56,254 nt of DNA from the NCBI GenBank assembly GCA_023267275.1, contig JAHFNO010000008.1:1-56254 (forward strand), written 5' to 3'. The DNA comes from Candidatus Nomurabacteria bacterium. Lineage in GTDB: Bacteria > Patescibacteriota > Minisyncoccia > Phycocordibacterales > UBA9973. Of this stretch, positions 21,240 to 56,254 are shown piece by piece (the first letter of the stretch is position 1; each line of letters opens with the position of its first letter). The translations under genes and the position numbers were made by a program. Under the pieces are notes generated by a model, which made no database searches, was not told the origin of the DNA, and worked only from the letters and a program-made list of their open reading frames with translations.

Positions 21240-21362
21240 TTATTTAATCGTCTTTCCTGTCTTAACTACATGTTCAACAAGCGTATAGGTATACCCCAGT
21301 TCATGGTCATACCACGTCAGTGAAATCCCTTTTTCGACCGATGTTGCTTGTGTTGTTATCAT
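21240..21362 (-). pseudogene. C-terminal fragment resembling glyceraldehyde-3-phosphate dehydrogenase
   Basis: MITTQATSVEKGISLTWYDHELGYTYTLVEHVVKTGKTIK* resembles the GAPDH C-terminal WYDNEWGYS region; in-frame stop just upstream. Confidence 0.6.
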
Positions 21363-21810: not shown

Positions 21811-22947
21811 TTAAAACTTTGACCACTTGCCTCCACCCGGTGTGTTTACGATCGTGTTGTGCTTCGGGCGATTAATAAATTGATCATTCGAGGGTATATT
21901 TCCTTTCTGCATAAATTCAATGAAGGAATCAAATATCTCTTTGGCGTTATCCAAGTTGTCGAGACTCATGATCCCTTTCAAGTTTTTATTGAGTCTGGCT
22001 TTGTCTTGTTTCGGATTACCCACGGTGTTTTGGAAAAGATTCCATCGCTCTTTCAAATCGGTTCCCCACATCATTGTGTAAAACTGTGAGCTCTCAAGGT
22101 TTGAGTGGCCGAGAATGTTTGTAACATCTGCACTTGCCCCGCCTTCCTTGATGATCTTTCGTCCTCCGTAGTGACGAGCTGAGTGTGCATTGAAAATTGA
22201 GGGCAGTCTGGCACGGTTCGATATCATTCTAAAAACTTCGCACACAGACCGATTCGTCATGCGCTTACCGCTAACATCGTATATGCCACACTTTCTGATT
22301 GAAATAAATACTGCGTTGGGATCGTCGAATGTCATGAGTTTTTGTATCTCACTTTTCTTCTTCAGCCACGCTTTGAGATACTTGCCAGTTTTTGCCGTCC
22401 AGAATATCTCTCGGACCGGACGCTTACCTCTCGATTTCTCGGTTCGTATAAGTGCACAGCCAGATAGGTCTTTATTAAATTGGAGCTCGTCTTCGTCTAC
22501 TGATATTATTTCTCCAGTTCGTGCCCATGAATCCCACACCATATGTACCAAGGCTAGATTTCTGATGTTGTTCGGATTGTTATCGCGCGGAATCGCGCTC
22601 ACTAGTTTTTTGAAGTCTTCATCATTTGCCACGCGCGGGATATTAAATTCTTTCTTTTGAAGCGGAATGAGTGATTCGTTGATGCAGTTGTGTCCTCTTA
22701 AGTTATAAAACTCGAAGAATTTTCGCAAGGCAAGTGCGACAATGTTTATGCCATTGCGCTTCCACCCGAGCCGTTCCATTTCTTTCATGTAGTGCAGTAT
22801 GTGGTGGATTTGAATCTGTTCGATATCTTGATCTCCCATGACAAGGCAAAAAATCCGCAGTGCGGAGTCATATCGAACGACCGTTTGGCCGGTTACTTTG
22901 AACCCTCTCCAATTTTTGAATTCTTCTATTGCTTGGCTTAATTTCAT
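21811..22947 (-). CDS. Tyrosine recombinase / phage integrase
   Basis: ARTGEIISVDEDEL...FNAHSARHYGGRKIIKEGGASADVTNILGHSNLESSQFYTM (catalytic R, HxxR, H, Y). Confidence 0.92.
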   Translation of the reverse strand: MKLSQAIEEFKNWRGFKVTGQTVVRYDSALRIFCLVMGDQDIEQIQIHHILHYMKEMERLGWKRNGINIVALALRKFFEFYNLRGHNCINESLIPLQKKEFNIPRVANDEDFKKLVSAIPRDNNPNNIRNLALVHMVWDSWARTGEIISVDEDELQFNKDLSGCALIRTEKSRGKRPVREIFWTAKTGKYLKAWLKKKSEIQKLMTFDDPNAVFISIRKCGIYDVSGKRMTNRSVCEVFRMISNRARLPSIFNAHSARHYGGRKIIKEGGASADVTNILGHSNLESSQFYTMMWGTDLKERWNLFQNTVGNPKQDKARLNKNLKGIMSLDNLDNAKEIFDSFIEFMQKGNIPSNDQFINRPKHNTIVNTPGGGKWSKF

Positions 22948-25529: not shown

Positions 25530-26465
25530 TTATTTCCAATCGAACCCTCTACCAAAATGCCCCCACGTGCAAGTATCTTTGAATTTTACCTGATCAAGTT
25601 TCAGGTACTCCCGCAATCCGCGAGGACTTAGATCGTAGCCGGTGATTTCTTGCTCCTTTCCATCAATGATTGCTACTGCCATCACTGGCTCGTTCTTCCC
25701 TATCGCATATGCGAGCTTTGTTTGAACTTCTTTCGCTGCGTGTTTTTCCAAGAGCTCGACAGCAATTCTTCGAGCCATGTATGCACCCGATCGATCGACT
25801 TTCGTATAATCCTTGCCTGAGAAAGAACCGCCGCCGATCGTAATCTCGGGACCGTAATTGTCTACAATCAACTTGCGACCAGAGAGTCCAGTGTCTGCAT
25901 CAAAACCTCCCTGTGTCCATTCACCTGCGGGATTAATGAGATATTCTTCAGCAGGAATTATTTCCTGCACAAACTTTAAGAGCTCATCGTTTTTTGTATT
26001 CTGAAAACTCGCCACCACTGTGATAACTTTCTCGCCATCGATTGTTACTTGGGTTTTTCCGTCGTAGGGATACTTCTCGAAAATCTTCTTGCAAAGCATT
26101 CGGGCAAGCTGATATTCAAGTGGCATGAAGTTTGGAGTTTCTGCTGTTGCATATCCCTTCATGATTCCTTGGTCGCCAGCACCGCCGGTATCCACGCCGC
26201 GAGCTATCTCGGGGCTTTGTAGGGCAATGTGCGTTATAACCTCGAAATCTGCCCCTACGATGGCTTTTACAATCTGTTCTACCTCGGGCTTTGCTCTGCT
26301 TGTTACCTCGCCGTTTATCGTGACAAGGTTATGCCCACCCATAACTTCGATCGCCACACGGCTCTCTGGATCGCCCTCTAAATAGGCATCGAGAATGCTA
26401 TCGGCGATGTAGTCACATATTTTGTCCGGATGTTTCGGACTCACAAACTCACTTGTTTTTCTCAT
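25530..26465 (-). CDS. metK: S-adenosylmethionine synthetase (short form)
   Basis: MRKTSEFVSPKHPDKICDYIADSILD...GAGDQGIMKGYA...GGGSFSGKDYTKVDRSGAYMARRIA. Confidence 0.95.
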   Translation of the reverse strand: MRKTSEFVSPKHPDKICDYIADSILDAYLEGDPESRVAIEVMGGHNLVTINGEVTSRAKPEVEQIVKAIVGADFEVITHIALQSPEIARGVDTGGAGDQGIMKGYATAETPNFMPLEYQLARMLCKKIFEKYPYDGKTQVTIDGEKVITVVASFQNTKNDELLKFVQEIIPAEEYLINPAGEWTQGGFDADTGLSGRKLIVDNYGPEITIGGGSFSGKDYTKVDRSGAYMARRIAVELLEKHAAKEVQTKLAYAIGKNEPVMAVAIIDGKEQEITGYDLSPRGLREYLKLDQVKFKDTCTWGHFGRGFDWK

Positions 26466-30203: not shown

Positions 30204-31232
30204 TTAAGTTGTTAATGTTAAGTCGGGATACGCTTTTATAATCTGTTGAAATATTAATTTCAATACAGGTACGGATACGCTATCGCCAAACTGTTTGTAT
30301 GCTTCATTTCTATTTTCTGCTATTTCATAGTCTTCTGGGAAGCCTTGCATGCGGGCACATTCTCTCGGAGTCAGCTTTCTGACTTTACCGTTAATCAAAT
30401 ATGCTCCTGTTTTGCTTGCTGCACCGCCTCCATAGGCCGACAACGTTATACCGGCGGCTTTTGTTGAGTATATCCTCTCTCCTTGTCCACCCCCATTTAT
30501 CTTGCCTATCTGCAAAGGACGACGAGGGTCTACTACTTCCGCATCAGGCTTCGTTATTTTCATGTCTGGTCTGTCGATAAAACCATGAAAGATGTTATCT
30601 TGCTCAAGAATATCTTCAACAGTTTTAAACTCCTTGATTGGTTTTGGAAATTCAAAATTCTTTATTCCAAGGTCTTTCCTGAAGGCAACGATATAGACTC
30701 TTTCTCTCGCCTGAGGAACTCCGTAATCGCTTGATCTCAAAACTTTTATAAAGTGATCATATCCGATTTCTTCAAGTGTGTCTTTGACCACTTGGATTGT
30801 TTTTCCATTATCGTGTTTTAAGAAATTTCTTACGTTCTCCAAAAAAAGAACTTCTGGTTTTGCTTTTTTTGCGATTCTTGCAACATCAAAAAATAAAGTG
30901 CCTCTAGTATCACCGAAACCTTTCATTTTCCCTGAAATACTGAAGGCTTGGCAAGGAAAACCTGCACACAAAACGTTGTGCTTAGGAACTTCTTTTTCGT
31001 CTATTTTTGTAATGTCTCCTTCTGGGCACTCACCGAAGTTTCTTTCGTAAGTATCTTGAGACTTTTCGTCCCATTCTGATCCAAAGACACACTCCCCTCC
31101 ATGACTTTCTAGAGCAATGCGAAATCCTCCAATGCCAGCAAACAAATCAATGAAATCAAAAGTCTGTTGGGTTTTTTCCCAACTTTTCTTTTTGTTTACC
31201 TTTTGAGTTTGAAATAGTGTTGCGACTGGCAT
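30204..31232 (-). CDS. DNA (cytosine-5) methyltransferase, M.HhaI-like
   Basis: FIDLFAGIGGFRIALESHGGECVFGSEWD..LCAGFPCQAFSISGKMKGFGDTRGTLFFD..QGERIYSTKAAGITLSAYGGG..RKLTPRECARMQGFPEDY..QFGDSVSVPV. Confidence 0.95.
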   Translation of the reverse strand: MPVATLFQTQKVNKKKSWEKTQQTFDFIDLFAGIGGFRIALESHGGECVFGSEWDEKSQDTYERNFGECPEGDITKIDEKEVPKHNVLCAGFPCQAFSISGKMKGFGDTRGTLFFDVARIAKKAKPEVLFLENVRNFLKHDNGKTIQVVKDTLEEIGYDHFIKVLRSSDYGVPQARERVYIVAFRKDLGIKNFEFPKPIKEFKTVEDILEQDNIFHGFIDRPDMKITKPDAEVVDPRRPLQIGKINGGGQGERIYSTKAAGITLSAYGGGAASKTGAYLINGKVRKLTPRECARMQGFPEDYEIAENRNEAYKQFGDSVSVPVLKLIFQQIIKAYPDLTLTT

Positions 31233-46118: not shown

Positions 46119-46129
46119 AAATTTGCAAC

Positions 46130-46190
46130 AAAAAAAGGGATTGCAACGCAAGCCCATCTCCAGTAGAGACGAAATCGCGTTACAAGCCCT
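46130..46190 (-). terminator. Hairpin plus T tract in the leader between RT and portal genes
   Basis: Minus strand: AGGGCTTGTAACGC ... GCGTTGCAATCCCTTTTTTT. Confidence 0.55.
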
Positions 46191-46259
46191 CTTGTGTATC
46201 AAGTCAGACTGTACGAACCAAATTAAAAATGTACTCTTATATTATACCGGCTTACTTTT

Positions 46260-47240
46260 TTAATACAAGGCAATCCCTACCCGCTTTTGCACTTTGTAAG
46301 TGTTGCCGTGACCAAGCAAACCTCTATATGAGCTTATTGTTTCGGGCTTCGGATATCCCTTTAGTTTTCTGATTAATTTCCGCTTTGTCGTAGTCCTGAT
46401 CTTTCGGTGATGCGGGAAATGGACCCAACCAAGGAAATCCACACCCGAACCATATGTTTTGATATATACCTTGTGAGGATGAAGTTTCAGTTTTAACCTT
46501 TCGTTCAGAAAATCATCAATCTTTGGAAGTAAATCTTCTAGATATTTTTTATTATCTGACAAAATAGCGAAGTCGTCTGCGTAACGAATATAATGTTTGA
46601 CCCGGAGTCCTTGCTTCATGTACATGTCAAACTCGTGCATGTAGATATTCACGAGAAGTTGAGACGTTAAATTTCCCAATGGCAACCCAACACCTTCTTG
46701 TTCCGTATGAAAACTTTTCACCACTTGGTTTATGAGCCAGAGTATTTCTTCGTCTTGGATATGTCTCTTCAGGATGGAACGCAAAATATCATGATCCACA
46801 CTCGCAAAGAATTTTCTTATATCGCATTTCAAAATGTAGCATGTACGCGTGTTATTTTTTGATACCCTGTCGGCAAAAACTTTGAAACGCTCAAATGCTC
46901 GGTGCGTTCCTTTGTGCTTCCTGCATGAGTAAGAATCAAAAATAAAACGTGAATCAAAATACCAATACAATTCTTTATAAATCAGATGGTGAAGAACCCT
47001 GTCTCGAACGATCGCCTTGTGAATGTTTCTCGGTTTGGGATCGGAAATATTAAAAGCTGAATACCCAGAATGTTCGTACGTTCTGTCTTTGAGCATGACG
47101 TAAAGTTCAATGAGATTATCCGACAGTTGGACTTCGAATTTCATAACGTCCTTCTTTTGCCTTTTCCCACAGATAAAATGATTCCATGTGGAGAGGATAT
47201 TTTCTATCGATATGATATTGTTATATTTATGAGTGAACAT
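46260..47240 (-). CDS. DGR-type reverse transcriptase
   Basis: YIRYADDFAILSD (RT domain 5), GLPLGNLTSQLLVNIYMHEFD (DGR-type xGxxxSQ in place of the usual SP), KPRNIHKAIVRDRVLHHL; start set at MFTHKYNNIISIENIL. Confidence 0.95.
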   Translation of the reverse strand: MFTHKYNNIISIENILSTWNHFICGKRQKKDVMKFEVQLSDNLIELYVMLKDRTYEHSGYSAFNISDPKPRNIHKAIVRDRVLHHLIYKELYWYFDSRFIFDSYSCRKHKGTHRAFERFKVFADRVSKNNTRTCYILKCDIRKFFASVDHDILRSILKRHIQDEEILWLINQVVKSFHTEQEGVGLPLGNLTSQLLVNIYMHEFDMYMKQGLRVKHYIRYADDFAILSDNKKYLEDLLPKIDDFLNERLKLKLHPHKVYIKTYGSGVDFLGWVHFPHHRKIRTTTKRKLIRKLKGYPKPETISSYRGLLGHGNTYKVQKRVGIALY

Positions 47241-47627
47241 AAGGAAACTACTAAACCTGCCATGACGCAAACCCCTCTCGTTTTGGTGAGAACCAAAGAA
47301 GCATACCGCACTTGGCACGACGCACTGGTTAAAGTGAATCGAGTCGATCGCTATACGATCGGTGCTCGAATCGATGAAACCTTCCTTTCCTTGCTTGAGA
47401 CTATTTTCAGAGCTACTTTCGCCCACGATAAATTTGAGAAGCTTTCTCTTGTTTCTGAGGCTTTAGGTAAAAACGATCTTCTGAAATTCTTTCTTCAGAT
47501 TGGCTGGGAACAAAAAGCTATTGATCATACTGTATACGGTGCACTGATTCTTAATCTCGACGAGGTTGGAAGGATGCTCGGCGGATGGAAGAAAAATCTG
47601 CAAGAAAAAACTCCCACCAACAAATAA
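47229..47627 (+). CDS. Avd-like DGR accessory protein
   Basis: YTIGARIDETFLSLLETIFRATFAHDKFEKLSLVSEALGKNDLLKFFLQIGWEQKAIDHTVYGALILNLDEVGRMLGGWKKNL; alternative start at 47262. Confidence 0.85.
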   Translation: MSEHKETTKPAMTQTPLVLVRTKEAYRTWHDALVKVNRVDRYTIGARIDETFLSLLETIFRATFAHDKFEKLSLVSEALGKNDLLKFFLQIGWEQKAIDHTVYGALILNLDEVGRMLGGWKKNLQEKTPTNK

Positions 47628-47640: not shown

Positions 47641-47651
47641 AAAAATGAGTA

Positions 47652-47770
47652 GCAGAAGCACAACAGGCAGTTGTCGTCATTCCAGTCATTCTCGAAGTAA
47701 CCGAGGTTGAACTTCCAGTCACCGTCCGAGTTGCGGTTCACGTTCGGCACCCTGTGGTTGCCGTCAGCGT
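47652..47770 (-). repeat. DGR template repeat (TR)
   Basis: 119-bp near-copy of 48116-48234; all 8 mismatches are at A (minus strand) in this copy. Confidence 0.97.
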
Positions 47771-48027
47771 ACGCACAAGCAATGTACGAGAGATCATCCA
47801 TTCCACCACGCTCAGCACCAGCCAAGCGTTGTATTTCATTCGGAGTTTTTAAACTCTCCAATATCTCGCACCGACTTATTTTTGTTTTTTCATAAAAGGA
47901 GGCACTCATCCGGAAGCCGTGACCGCCGAACCACTCGCCAAACCCTTATACGAGATTTCGACTCCGCGAAGCCTTGACCGCACGATAATATCTACTTTCT
48001 GGATATCAGTATATCGGATATTCAAAA

Positions 48028-48060
48028 TAAAAAAAGAGCCTTTGCTTTCGCAAAGGCTCC
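48028..48060 (-). terminator. 10-bp GAAA-tetraloop hairpin plus T tract downstream of VR
   Basis: Minus strand: GAGCCTTTGC GAAA GCAAAGGCTC TTTTTTT. Confidence 0.9.
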
Positions 48061-48106
48061 AAGGGTCAAAGACCCAATTGATACTAAGTGACCAAGCGAC
48101 CAAGGA

Positions 48107-48772
48107 CTACTTGTCGCAGAAGCACAACAGGCAGTGGCCGTCATCCCAGTCATTCTCGAAGCAACCGAGGCTGAACTTCCAGTCACCGTCCGAGTAGCGG
48201 TCCACGCTCGGCACCCTGTGGTTGCCGTCAGCGTCTTCCCAGAGAGCGTCCTTCTCATCGAAGGAAACAGTCCATTTGGACACTGGGAACTGGTCCGCCT
48301 TGCTGTCCTGCAACAACGTGATGCCCTGTCCGCCGACGAGGATGGCCCCCTGCTTCTTCAGGAAGGTCATGCAGTCTCCGCTCGTTACTGTTGCCAGTAT
48401 CGGGAAGATTCGCACGCGGTAGGTTTTGCCCGGCTCGAGTTTGTTCGTCGCTTTCGCGAAGTTCTCGCTCGAGAGGTCATCGTTGAAGTAGTAGGTGGTC
48501 TTCAGCTTCTTGGTCTTCTTGGCGAAGGTGTCGAGCTGGGTGTCGTGCTTGTAGTCTGCCGGCACCGTAAACTCGAAGTCCTTCATCGCGGGACCGAAGC
48601 GCTGATCCACCATGGCGAGCTTCTGCAGGATGGGCTTCATTTGCTCTTGCAACGTGCCACCTGCTTTAATGATTTCCTGAGCCTCATCTTTCGAGAAGCC
48701 CAACGCACGAACCGCGTCTCTTACGAGATCGGCAATGCGATTTTCTTGGTTTGACGTGATCTTTTCAGTCAT
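48107..48772 (-). CDS. DGR target protein with C-terminal variable region (C-type-lectin-like VR style)
   Basis: MTEKITSNQENRIADLV...GNHRVPSVDRYSDGDWKFSLGCFENDWDDGHCLLCFCDK*; VR occupies the last ~40 residues; AAGGAAA before ATG. Confidence 0.93.
   Translation of the reverse strand: MTEKITSNQENRIADLVRDAVRALGFSKDEAQEIIKAGGTLQEQMKPILQKLAMVDQRFGPAMKDFEFTVPADYKHDTQLDTFAKKTKKLKTTYYFNDDLSSENFAKATNKLEPGKTYRVRIFPILATVTSGDCMTFLKKQGAILVGGQGITLLQDSKADQFPVSKWTVSFDEKDALWEDADGNHRVPSVDRYSDGDWKFSLGCFENDWDDGHCLLCFCDK
48116..48234 (-). repeat. DGR variable repeat (VR)
   Basis: Differs from TR at 48136, 48138, 48145, 48162, 48171, 48196, 48202 and 48207 only. Confidence 0.97.
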
Positions 48773-48842
48773 CGTATTTCCTTTTTTGAATGTACAATCC
48801 AGAATCTGCTGGAACAGTTGCAAGGATACTTGCTATGGGAAC

Positions 48843-48871
48843 ATTATAGCAAAAACAACACTATTTGTCAA
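48843..48871 (-). promoter_or_regulatory. Perfect consensus sigma70 promoter for the DGR target
   Basis: Minus strand: TTGACA-17 bp-TATAAT. Confidence 0.9.
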
Positions 48872-48891
48872 TATGTCAAGTATGCCTTTAT

Positions 48892-49086
48892 TTATAAAGG
48901 GAAAGCAGTGAATTCGTCGGTTTCTTCCCCTTTTCTTTTTATTCTATATTCCGTAAGAATAACCTTTTGGTCTTGGATTTTTATTATAATTTCTCCGAAC
49001 TTAATTTGAGACGCCAAAGTCATGATCTCATCCCATTCAGAGGTAACTTCTCTCACAACTCTCGGTTTTTGTTTTTGTTGGTTCAT
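48892..49086 (-). CDS. Small protein resembling DUF2292/YezD family
   Basis: SQIKFGEIIIKIQDQKVILTEYRIKRKG. Confidence 0.55.
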   Translation of the reverse strand: MNQQKQKPRVVREVTSEWDEIMTLASQIKFGEIIIKIQDQKVILTEYRIKRKGEETDEFTAFPL

Positions 49087-51221: not shown

Positions 51222-52319
51222 TTATTTTGCAAGGAGCATACGGCTGATGACTTCACGCACTGTGTTGACCGTGACGGCGTTTCCGAGGCACTTGTAGCGT
51301 GCTGTGTCGCTGACGCCGGCAGTCCAGTTGTCGGGAAATCCCTGAAGCCGTTCGCACTCGACAGGCGTAAGTCTGCGTATGGTTGTGCCATTAAATACGC
51401 CATGCTTGTCTTGTGCCGTCAATGTGAAGCTCGGGTCGTTATGGCTCTTTACTCGCCTGCCATTCTGCCGTTTGTTGATACGGTCGGGAGTAAGCACAGG
51501 AATGGCGTACAGCCCTGTTTTAGCCCCAACACCGCCCGCCTGACTGGCCAATGTGATTGATATTCCCTTGGGATCGTAGACTCGGTATCCTTGGGACCCG
51601 CCCGCAAGCTGTACCAAATCCCACGAATGCTTTTTACTTACGCTCCCACGACCGCCAGTTCTGATCGTATTTGAGAGATTAGTTTCCTTGTTAGTTTCGG
51701 CGAGAGGAAATATTTTTGCGGTACGTCCTTTTCCAAGATGTCCGACAATGAACACTCTTTCCCGATTTTGCGGTACCCCGAAGTTTTTGCTGTTAAGCAC
51801 CTGCCATTCAACGTCATACCCCAACTCATGAAGGGTTGAAAGGATGACAGCAAATGTTTTTCCTTTGTTGTGAGATAGAAGCCCTTTGACGTTTTCAAGA
51901 AGTAGAAAGCGTGGCCGCTTTTGTTTAATGATCCGAGCGATTTCAAAGAAGAGCGTACCTCGCGTATCTTTGAACCCGAGACGCTTTCCAGCGATCGAAA
52001 ATGATTGGCAAGGAAAGCCTCCGATGAGCAGATCAAAGTTTGGTAATTCTTTGGTTTTGATTTTTCTGATGTCTCCATAATTTTTTTGCTCTGGGAAATG
52101 TTCCTTATAAATTTTAATTGCCGACTTTTCAATTTCGGAATATCCAACACAAGAGGCACCTGACCTCCGCCCATTCCCATTGCTGATGTGAGACAAGGAC
52201 AAAGTTCTACCATGAGTGCTGCGTTTCTTTGCTGACTTCCTAGTGCGATGCTGATCATATGCTTGTTGTATTCCGAGCTCGAACCCACCGATGCCTGAGA
52301 ATAGACTGAAGTATTTCAT
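51222..52319 (-). CDS. DNA (cytosine-5) methyltransferase
   Basis: MKYFSLFSGIGGFELGI..GGFPCQSFSIAGKRLGFKDTRGTLFFE..LLENVKGLLSHN..RRLTPVECERLQGFPDNW..KCLGNAVTVNTV. Confidence 0.93.
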   Translation of the reverse strand: MKYFSLFSGIGGFELGIQQAYDQHRTRKSAKKRSTHGRTLSLSHISNGNGRRSGASCVGYSEIEKSAIKIYKEHFPEQKNYGDIRKIKTKELPNFDLLIGGFPCQSFSIAGKRLGFKDTRGTLFFEIARIIKQKRPRFLLLENVKGLLSHNKGKTFAVILSTLHELGYDVEWQVLNSKNFGVPQNRERVFIVGHLGKGRTAKIFPLAETNKETNLSNTIRTGGRGSVSKKHSWDLVQLAGGSQGYRVYDPKGISITLASQAGGVGAKTGLYAIPVLTPDRINKRQNGRRVKSHNDPSFTLTAQDKHGVFNGTTIRRLTPVECERLQGFPDNWTAGVSDTARYKCLGNAVTVNTVREVISRMLLAK

Positions 52320-53578
52320 TGCTTTGCATGATTCATTCGCTCCCATCTGTCGCGTATCACATCACAGAATTTAGGGTCGAGTTCAATCATGAATGCACGC
52401 CGACCGACTTTTTCGGCTGCCGTCATCGTACTACCTGAACCTCCGAATGGATCGAGTACGATGTCGTTTCTTTTAGTGGAGTTTCGCAATGCTCGCATAC
52501 AGAGCCAGTCTGGTTTTTCCGTCGGGTGTAAATAACGAGCCGTTGCTTTGCGTGGCATTTCCCACACATCATATTCGTTGTCGCCGAAGAACATGTGCGT
52601 ACCGACTTTCCATCCATAGATAATGCTCTCTGCTGTTTTCGGATCGGGTTTCTTTGCCTTGGCGATCCACTCGTGCTTGTAGCGGTAATCGTTCCATCCC
52701 ATGCTCGGTACATTCTTGACCCATATGATCACTCCAGAATGTCTGAAGCCGTTGGAGAGCATGCTCTGTAAAAATTGCGGGTACGAGCTCCATCCCGAGC
52801 AGATATAGAGGGACCCGCCCTCTTTGATATAGGTGATCATTCCCGAGAATGCACCGTCAATAAACGCCTTGAATTCTTCGGGAGTCATATTGTCGTTTTT
52901 GATTTTCTCCAAGTTGTCGCCTTTGAGTTTTTCTCCACGTGAGTGATAGTCCACGTTGTATGGCGGATCGGTGAATATCATGTCGGCTCTTTCTTTGCCA
53001 AGCAGTGCTTTGTACACCTCGGGGTCGGTTGAATCTCCGCAAATCAAACGGTGCTGTCCAAGCTCGTATATTTCGCCGAGCTTTGAGCGTGCCTCTTTGG
53101 TTTCGTCTATTGGTTCTTCTTCGTCCTCGTCTTCATTGAGTGTCTGATCGAGAATACGACTGATTTCGTCTTCTCTGAATCCCGAGGACGGAAGTGTTGG
53201 GCTTTCTTTGATGTCGACAATAAGTGTGTAGAGTTTTTCTTCGTCAAACTTTCCGTGAATCTTATTAAGACCTAGATTGAGTTCAACTTCTTCAGTAAGA
53301 TTCTCTAACTCAACAAAGACAACAGGAATCAAATAGTCATCGCCTTGCTTCTCTATGTTCTTTGGAGTGATTGATCGGGCGATTAAGTATTCGATTGCCG
53401 CGAGCCTTTGGTGTCCGCCGATAATAATTCCGTATCTGTCTTTGAAAGAATTGACCACCATCGGCTCTACGAAGCCTTTTGTCTCGATGGATTTTATGAG
53501 TGCCTGCATTTCAGAGTCAGGCATGATGCGCGGGTTGTAGTCGGCCCGCTTGAGGTCTCGGATTTTAATTGTCGTCTG
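52316..53578 (-). CDS. ParB-like nuclease domain fused to N4/N6 DNA methyltransferase
   Basis: MQTTIKIRDLKRADYNPRIM..IIIGGHQRLAAIEYL; FTDPPYNVDYHSRG; VLDPFGGSGSTMTAAEKVGRRAFMIELD. Confidence 0.92.
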   Translation of the reverse strand, partial: QTTIKIRDLKRADYNPRIMPDSEMQALIKSIETKGFVEPMVVNSFKDRYGIIIGGHQRLAAIEYLIARSITPKNIEKQGDDYLIPVVFVELENLTEEVELNLGLNKIHGKFDEEKLYTLIVDIKESPTLPSSGFREDEISRILDQTLNEDEDEEEPIDETKEARSKLGEIYELGQHRLICGDSTDPEVYKALLGKERADMIFTDPPYNVDYHSRGEKLKGDNLEKIKNDNMTPEEFKAFIDGAFSGMITYIKEGGSLYICSGWSSYPQFLQSMLSNGFRHSGVIIWVKNVPSMGWNDYRYKHEWIAKAKKPDPKTAESIIYGWKVGTHMFFGDNEYDVWEMPRKATARYLHPTEKPDWLCMRALRNSTKRNDIVLDPFGGSGSTMTAAEKVGRRAFMIELDPKFCDVIRDRWERMNHAKQ

Positions 53579-53951
53579 CATATAACGATTCGTCGTATTT
53601 GAAGTCTTTTGCAAATTCGACCCTGTGTCTGAGATTCTTTATTTTCTCAGTATCTTTTCTGATGCTTTCATTTATGAGACTGATCGTCTCATCACAACTC
53701 ACAATAAAGCTCTCTGCTTTTTCGATATTCGCCTCGAGTTCTTTTCTATGCAGGCGAGTTGCTTTTGATGTATCACGTGGAGGAATTGCGGTGAGATCAT
53801 TTCTTAATCCATCGAGCTCGGTTTGCTTGTCATCCTGAAGTTTTTTTACATCAGGGATTTTTGTTTTATCGAATTCGATATTTACCGCCTTTCTCCAGAT
53901 TTGCTCATTGAGCTCGTTTGTAAAATTTTGCAAATATAATTTTGTGTCCAT
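53565..53951 (-). CDS. Hypothetical coiled-coil protein
   Basis: 128-aa ORF in operon. Confidence 0.5.
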   Translation of the reverse strand: MDTKLYLQNFTNELNEQIWRKAVNIEFDKTKIPDVKKLQDDKQTELDGLRNDLTAIPPRDTSKATRLHRKELEANIEKAESFIVSCDETISLINESIRKDTEKIKNLRHRVEFAKDFKYDESLYADDN

Positions 53952-55069: not shown

Positions 55070-56251
55070 TTACTTGCCACTTTTCTTTCCCTTGTCAGTT
55101 GCTGATTTTTTGGGACTGTCTTCTTTCGAGTCCCGCAGATCTTTATCGAACTTTTCCGCAGGTGTAGGTTCGGCAGGAAGCTCGCCTTTTGCTTCAGCGA
55201 TCTTTTGTTTTCCGAACTCCACCACTCTTGCGAATCCATCCTCGAGCATCTCGGGATGCATTGCTTCGATTGCAGACCAACTTCGAGTTGCAAATGCATA
55301 CTCGAGCGCATCAGTTTTGTTTTTCTTTTCTGCTGCACTTGTACTTGGCCAGACCGATACAAGGTATCCTTCGATTTCTTCGAGCCATCGCTTTTTTGCT
55401 CTGACCCATTCACGCTTATCTTCTTCAGTCTTGATAAGCTCGCCTGCATCCTGTTCAGCATGGCTGAACCGTGCAGCTACAGGGTCTTTAATCACGGCTT
55501 CCACCGCAGGAGCAAAGTCTTCGTAGGTCGGGTTCTTGAAAACCTTTCCGTCTAGGAGATTGCCTCGGCCTTTGAGCACAGTCGCTTGTCGCCATACTTC
55601 TCGCTTTGTGCGAGTGATGAGCTCGTGGCGTTCCATGAGTACCAAGACATCAAATTCGTATGCTGCGTTCTTTTCCGCTTGCATCTTCACTCCAGTCTTA
55701 GTGAACTCTTTGCGACCATCTTCGTCTACTTCCTGTTCCATGCGATCCGACACACGGCCGGTTGCAAGGATGTGCAGGGGCGATTGCACAAGTGGGATTG
55801 AGAAGTATTTATTCCACTCGCTTTTGATCGACATCCAATCCTGTATTTGGAAAGTTGTTCGATTCAGCTTTCGCTTGTAGGCTTCTTGGAAGTCCATCCA
55901 GATGTGGGTGATACTGTCGATCACCATGATGTCTGAATATCCATCCGAGCAGAGCTTCATCGCTCTTGATAGATCGGCGAGTGAATGTGTTTCGCGCACC
56001 ATCACTTCGACTCCGTGTTCTTTGAACAGGGGGACCAAGAATTTCGACGCTTTCTCGGTATCGATAAGCACGATCGGCTTTTTGCTGTTGATCTTCTTGT
56101 GAAGACCAATTGCTACTAATGCGACAGACCAACTTTTGCCGGTTCCCGGCTCCCCTTCAAATGCCGCTTTGAAGTAGGGTTTTGTATTCCCGATGGCTGT
56201 GAAAAATTCACTTTCCACACCTTGGGAATTGCTTCGTTCTAGTGTTTGCAT
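55070..56251 (-). CDS. Sak4/RecA-like phage ATPase
   Basis: FEGEPGTGKSWSVALVAIGL (Walker A), DIMVIDSITHIW (Walker B), position in replication/recombination module. Confidence 0.8.
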   Translation of the reverse strand: MQTLERSNSQGVESEFFTAIGNTKPYFKAAFEGEPGTGKSWSVALVAIGLHKKINSKKPIVLIDTEKASKFLVPLFKEHGVEVMVRETHSLADLSRAMKLCSDGYSDIMVIDSITHIWMDFQEAYKRKLNRTTFQIQDWMSIKSEWNKYFSIPLVQSPLHILATGRVSDRMEQEVDEDGRKEFTKTGVKMQAEKNAAYEFDVLVLMERHELITRTKREVWRQATVLKGRGNLLDGKVFKNPTYEDFAPAVEAVIKDPVAARFSHAEQDAGELIKTEEDKREWVRAKKRWLEEIEGYLVSVWPSTSAAEKKNKTDALEYAFATRSWSAIEAMHPEMLEDGFARVVEFGKQKIAEAKGELPAEPTPAEKFDKDLRDSKEDSPKKSATDKGKKSGK

Positions 56252-56254
56252 AAT

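Follow-up and report, generated by a model that had tools for sequence, protein, structure and literature searches.

A prophage of a Candidatus Nomurabacteria bacterium carries a probable chromosomal-type DGR cassette with an apparently self-contained target gene

Results

Prophage layout and position of the DGR cassette

The window, that is, the whole 56,254-nt stretch of DNA analysed here, corresponds to contig C31 in an assembly of 33 contigs totalling 1.02 Mb; genomes within the host's order are small (0.4-1.4 Mb). Host genes (PfkB, transketolase, RPE and others) occupy it left of ~21.2 kb. There, a remnant of the gapdh 3' end (21243-21326, minus strand) marks the edge of a prophage and is followed by an integrase gene (21811-22947). 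Since the last 120 bases of the window (56135-56254) are the first 120 bases of contig C13, which has an intact gapdh at 1227-2243, the prophage runs on into C13 towards this gene. The gapdh remnant and the intact gene yielded no exact crossover core.

The head genes are located on the minus strand, in the order TerS (assigned by position), TerL, DUF2292, portal, protease and capsid, and a DGR cassette lies between DUF2292 and portal. Its left-hand phage flank is the small DUF2292-like gene (48892-49086, minus strand) and its right-hand flank the portal leader (46126-46260, minus strand), which aligns with the pre-portal leader of a related prophage, L075. This leader has a promoter-like site of its own, a TATAAT followed by a hairpin and T-run directly before the portal gene, and similar promoter-like and hairpin leaders precede the portal in L075, L076 and L078. 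It is possibly a late promoter with attenuation or antitermination.

The reverse transcriptase (RT) gene of the cassette (46260-47162, minus strand) matches PF00078 (3.3e-24) and phrog_1423 (4e-94). The avd gene (47229-47627, plus strand; PF22296, 3.1e-10; phrog_3206, 2.2e-15) is antisense to the rest of the cassette, an arrangement shared with L013, L014, L020, L024, L079-L082 and L123. The target gene (48107-48772, minus strand) encodes 221 amino acids and has the variable repeat (VR; 48113-48234, minus strand) at its 3' end; VR is 93% identical to the template repeat (TR; 47649-47770, minus strand). Eight of the nine differences between these 122-nt repeats fall at TR adenines (P = 4.5e-5). 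With RT, Avd and an adenine-biased TR/VR pair, the cassette is, judged by its sequence, a genuine DGR. Upstream of TR, a conserved leader with its own -10-like element (47771-48015, minus strand) is kept in ten RT-linked cassettes. This non-coding stretch presumably forms the 5' portion of the TR RNA.

The target protein and its composition

The target belongs to no named family: neither the family libraries nor any PDB sequence recognised it, and a structure model made without an alignment reached a pLDDT of 36. As to a C-type lectin fold around VR, the mark of C-type-lectin-fold DGR variable proteins, the analysis thus gave an absent PDB match and a low-confidence model. The original prediction had seen no obvious signal peptide, and none was found, the most hydrophobic 15-residue stretch within the first 45 residues scoring 0.77. 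An RT-less relative, L018, differs from the window target in having a hydrophobic N terminus. Residues 1-60 are similar to the N-terminal parts of further DGR targets, among them the target of a second, distant DGR that has the same layout and lies near the integrase of the G231 prophage (L077:2851-5563). The module of about 60 residues (window 48572-48772; L077:2851-3051; L118:1480-1680) is common to targets with differing C-terminal parts. Pattern-limited scans of 2.9 million viral contigs found no relatives of the target.

The target had been described as clearly more GC-rich than the flanking phage genes, which proved right for the target itself. Its GC content is 0.556 against 0.442 for the prophage, and its GC3 of 0.779, compared with 0.32-0.53 in other phage genes, is the highest among the window genes measured. 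The description does not extend to the RT (0.392) and avd (0.429) of the cassette, which are not GC-rich. The same bias is found in chromosomal relatives of the target, with GC3 of 0.63-0.78 against 0.20-0.34 for host tuf and 0.20-0.46 for the RTs of the same cassettes. Target genes with GC3 of 0.63-0.78 in AT-rich hosts are those of the window, L012, L020, L079-L082 and L123. Because GC richness is thus a family trait, present in chromosomal copies as well, it does not date the acquisition of the target, and its use as proof of recent acquisition had to be abandoned. Two causes of the high GC3 were considered and are unsupported: high expression, as tuf of the hosts has a GC3 of just 0.20-0.34, and adenine avoidance, as third codon positions are poor in T as well as in A.

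The target promoter and 5' leader

A perfect TTGACA-17-TATAAT promoter had been claimed for the target at 48843-48871, and it lies exactly there. On the minus strand, TTGACA (48871-48866) is followed by a 17-nt spacer and TATAAT (48848-48843), with TG before the -10 box, giving a sigma-70-type promoter of the extended -10 form that matches at 12 of 12 positions, 99 nt upstream of the target. It is the sole 12/12 match in the region 40.0-56.3 kb, where promoter-like sites are fewer (10) than in shuffled sequences (20.2 +/- 4.6), and no 12/12 promoter arose in 200 dinucleotide shuffles of the region upstream of the target.

We surveyed 220 nt upstream of the target at 22 loci of the same order, the window counted. 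A promoter with at least 10 of 12 matches precedes the target at 18 of them, where about one would be expected from shuffles. The close relatives L012, L013 and L014 share the 12/12, 17-nt, extended -10 form, and L127 has a 12/12 promoter with 16-nt spacing.

Between promoter and gene lies a conserved 5' leader (48773-48842, minus strand) with two small hairpins, at about 48820-48833 and 48798-48813, and a ribosome-binding region; the second hairpin has a CAGATT loop. Read by eye, the stems vary among homologues yet still pair. RNAalifold returned no consensus structure from an alignment of the leaders that was poor, with misplaced gaps, and the only Rfam matches (BjrC68, mir-4524) were far below gathering scores and were treated as chance.

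The hairpin downstream of the target

A hairpin with a GAAA loop and a subsequent T-run (48035-48060, minus strand) lies 46 nt past the target stop codon. Read from 48060 to 48035 and on into the tail, it is GGAGCCTTTGC-GAAA-GCAAAGGCTCT followed by TTTTTTATTT. The stem has ten Watson-Crick pairs and one G-T pair, and none of 200 shuffles matched its score. Terminators of this kind, a stem followed by a T-run, are found downstream of the target at most loci of the family. Their stems differ in both arms but remain paired, as in the window (GAGCCTTTGC/GCAAAGGCTC), L013 (GTCCCTTTGC/GCAAAGGGAC), L123 (GAGCACTTGC/GCAAGTGCTC) and L024 (GTAGCTCCGC/GCGGAGCTAC). By eye, L130, L017, L127 and L018 have bulged versions; the match at L129 is weak, being reached by 16 of 200 shuffles, and at L019 no terminator was called downstream of the target.

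Hairpins of similar shape are known for another role. A GRNA-loop hairpin downstream of VR is a published DGR homing element (PMC3240598): in phage DGRs such hairpins lie 4-34 bp after VR and have a GC-rich stem of 7-10 bp and a GRNA loop (Guo et al., PMC3240598), and in BPP-1 this structure matters for homing (PMC3240598). The window hairpin fits this consensus in its 10-bp stem and its GAAA loop, and might chiefly be a DGR target-recognition hairpin or cruciform and no terminator, in which case the target unit would be less insulated than it appears. GRNA loops occur in the window, L123, L013 and L081, all of them RT-linked, and no RT-less locus whose hairpin is clear has one. However, six other RT-linked loci carry other loops, the T-run follows the stem at nearly all loci, the RT-less copy in genome G039 keeps stem and T-run around a TTCG loop, and the window hairpin is 52 nt from VR, beyond the published 4-34. 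We therefore regard a recognition hairpin without terminator function as a rather improbable explanation. Termination is the better-supported role because the T-run is a more general feature than the GRNA loop; a homing role is compatible with it, the two functions are not mutually exclusive, and both may coexist. Of the GAAA-loop terminator predicted at 48028-48060, the hairpin and T-run are confirmed, and the function is ambiguous owing to the resemblance to a homing hairpin.

With its own 12/12 promoter and hairpin/T-run, both conserved in the family, the target would form the autonomous transcription unit that had been proposed. In the ten RT-linked cassettes, the -10-like element and the TR leader come after the terminator, so that the target and TR/RT look like two adjacent transcription units.

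Insertion into the prophage and source of the cassette

In three other prophages of this family, whose head genes are homologous (G234/L075, G231/L076 and G025/L078), the terminase adjoins the portal and no DGR lies in between. The DUF2292-like gene separates TerL from portal in L075 and L078, and a small ORF takes its place in L076. As the pre-portal sequence of L075, CGTATAGTCCGACTGGATACCCCAGAGGGCTTGTGATG, matches the portal leader of the window, CGTACAGTCTGACTTGATACACAAGAGGGCTTGTAACG, the phage sequence on either side of the insertion is identifiable. The insertion boundaries in the window bear no mobility signature. Since all three prophages lack the target, it is probably no part of the core virion gene set.

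In the RT tree, the window RT falls in a 12-member clade (100/99) and in a 5-member clade (100/99). We examined the neighbourhood of ten of the 11 other members of the larger clade (all except L126), and all ten lie among chromosomal genes: beside SecDF/FtsW (L013, L014), FAD oxidase and aldolase (L020), trigger factor, NusA and RNase Y (L123), IleRS and Maf (L024), UvrA (L046/L079), DEAD helicase and ECF sigma (L047/L080), rpoD and dnaG (L048/L081), M16 peptidase and tRNA synthetases (L050/L082) and, weakly, beside one phosphoribosyltransferase-like neighbour (L130). The window copy is the only phage-borne one seen among them. The simplest reading is that the cassette was transferred from a chromosome to the phage. 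We also considered that imprecise excision had captured a gene from beside gapdh, and rejected this, as the target is not located at a prophage end. Of the suggestion that the target is a recently acquired gene, acquisition accords with the three empty sites and the chromosomal RT clade, and recency is left undated by GC content.

RT-less targets and the gapdh site

All four related prophages (those of the window, G231, G025 and G234) are located at the gapdh 3' end; their loci at this site are window 21243-21326, L076, L077 and L132-L134. Two genomes with no RT match, from different families, carry a target directly downstream of gapdh (L019:53-1952 and L012:8888-10919). In G039, rated 100% complete, the chromosomal target has gapdh on one side and dapF on the other, and the GC content of the locus is 33.8%; in G066, a fragmented assembly, it likewise directly follows gapdh. 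The G039 locus aligns with the window over 48018-48880; one end of the alignment lies 9 nt outside the -35 box, the other shortly beyond the terminator. The two target proteins share 93% identity over residues 1-177, while gapdh of the same genomes shares 80%, which suggests horizontal transfer of the target. Compared with the window TR, the VR of G039 is changed at 15 of 30 adenines and at 7 of 92 other bases (P = 1.6e-6), the pattern that earlier DGR mutagenesis with a similar TR would leave. Apparently, the unit of promoter, target and terminator can travel without RT. In the G039 target, a stretch of 99 nt immediately upstream of VR is also duplicated in tandem and in frame (L012:9023-9220). 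An origin of the G039 copy from a prophage remnant was rejected, as no duplicated gapdh end was found beside it.

The coincidence of RT-less targets with the prophage integration site at gapdh is suggestive. It is conceivable, though we consider it doubtful, that this prophage family shuttles diversifying genes of the hosts, the RT-less unit moving between phage and chromosome and landing downstream of gapdh, where the RT of a resident prophage could diversify chromosomal copies in trans. This idea arises from the targets adjoining gapdh in G039 and G066 and from the adenine-specific differences between the G039 VR and the window TR.

Discussion

We consider it probable, on the genomic comparisons above, that the prophage carries a chromosomal-type DGR cassette as accessory cargo, and that the target is self-contained and its protein more likely serves the cell than the virion. 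A bacterial-type cassette would have been inserted between the terminase/DUF2292 genes and the portal leader. Its target would be a self-contained sigma-70 transcription unit composed of strong promoter, structured leader, gene and terminator, and the transcript of TR RNA and RT would begin at a separate promoter-like site just past the target terminator. In a resident prophage, the target would therefore be read by host RNA polymerase and be independent of phage late control. RT and Avd would copy TR into VR with errors at adenines, producing variants of a small soluble protein of probable use to the bacterial cell rather than the virion. Expression in the lysogen, present DGR activity and the host role are what we infer from this arrangement.

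Tropism switching is the usual interpretation of phage DGRs. In that light, the target would be a virion protein, receptor-binding or otherwise, whose diversification serves host tropism, like Mtd of BPP-1, and its promoter would be incidental. The target does lie within the structural gene region and in late-gene orientation, and PMC10743442 gives receptor-binding proteins as the main targets of studied phage DGRs. Against this stand its position between terminase and portal, away from tail genes, its absence from three related prophages, the chromosomal nature of its homologues and its conserved constitutive-type promoter, and we hold a virion protein to be unlikely. The target had also been placed in a late-gene region where genes would normally be co-transcribed. 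The shared direction agrees with this and makes readthrough from the terminase operon possible, but since the portal has its own promoter/hairpin leader, the neighbourhood is not plainly one late operon. That the target has its own promoter and terminator makes it more likely that the hypervariable protein works for the host than for the virus particle, even though a phage could recruit a diversified host protein into its virion.

Least probable of all, in our opinion, is that the cassette is an old native gene set of the phage, lost by the three other prophages and ancestral to the chromosomal copies: the second DGR of similar layout near the G231 integrase and the RT-less targets at gapdh, the site used by these prophages, would fit, but the G231 RT is distant (47% identity) and located elsewhere in the phage, among the members of its RT clade that were examined the window copy alone is phage-borne, and the pattern-limited search of viral contigs yielded no target relative.

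In favour of cargo of chromosomal type, the reading we prefer, DGRs of Patescibacteria are described as almost entirely cellular, and their targets as being without transmembrane domains (Roux et al. 2021, PMC8144416). The window cassette resembles the Patescibacteria/CPR cellular DGRs described as clade 2 (PMC8144416) in having RT, Avd, TR and VR, a target without recognisable transmembrane or conserved domain, and chromosomal relatives in small-genome bacteria. It differs in that clade 2 DGRs are almost entirely cellular, whereas the window copy lies within the head-gene region of a prophage. With the BPP-1 DGR (mtd/avd/brt) it has in common that it is phage-borne, that transfer from TR to VR is adenine-specific and that a GRNA-loop hairpin lies downstream of VR. 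Unlike in BPP-1, the target stands apart from tail genes, comes with a promoter and T-run terminator of its own and is chromosomal elsewhere, and avd is antisense.

The unit is also comparable to phage morons: to judge from the nucleotide sequence, it has its own promoter and terminator, it is placed between phage genes and it is absent from related phages. Composition unlike that of the neighbours, another moron trait, holds for the target (GC3 0.78) and not for RT and avd. It departs from morons in comprising a whole DGR cassette instead of a single gene, and its host benefit and lysogen expression are putative. A bacterial-type DGR would here be prophage cargo with an independently transcribed target, which makes it a concrete candidate for a lysogenic conversion brought about by a hypervariable protein and points to a possible route for the spread of DGR targets among ultra-small bacteria. 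The role of soluble DGR targets in such bacteria also becomes easier to test, as cells that have the cassette can be compared with cells that lack it.

The prophage further encodes S-adenosylmethionine synthetase and three DNA methyltransferases (25530-26465, 30204-31232 and 51222-53614), two of the methyltransferases being of the C5 type and one of the N6/N4 type with a ParB-like domain. Two more reverse transcriptases are present in the same genome (G000:C22:67811-68758 and G000:C1:22728-23216), and the one on C22 is DGR-like and accompanied by an antisense avd.
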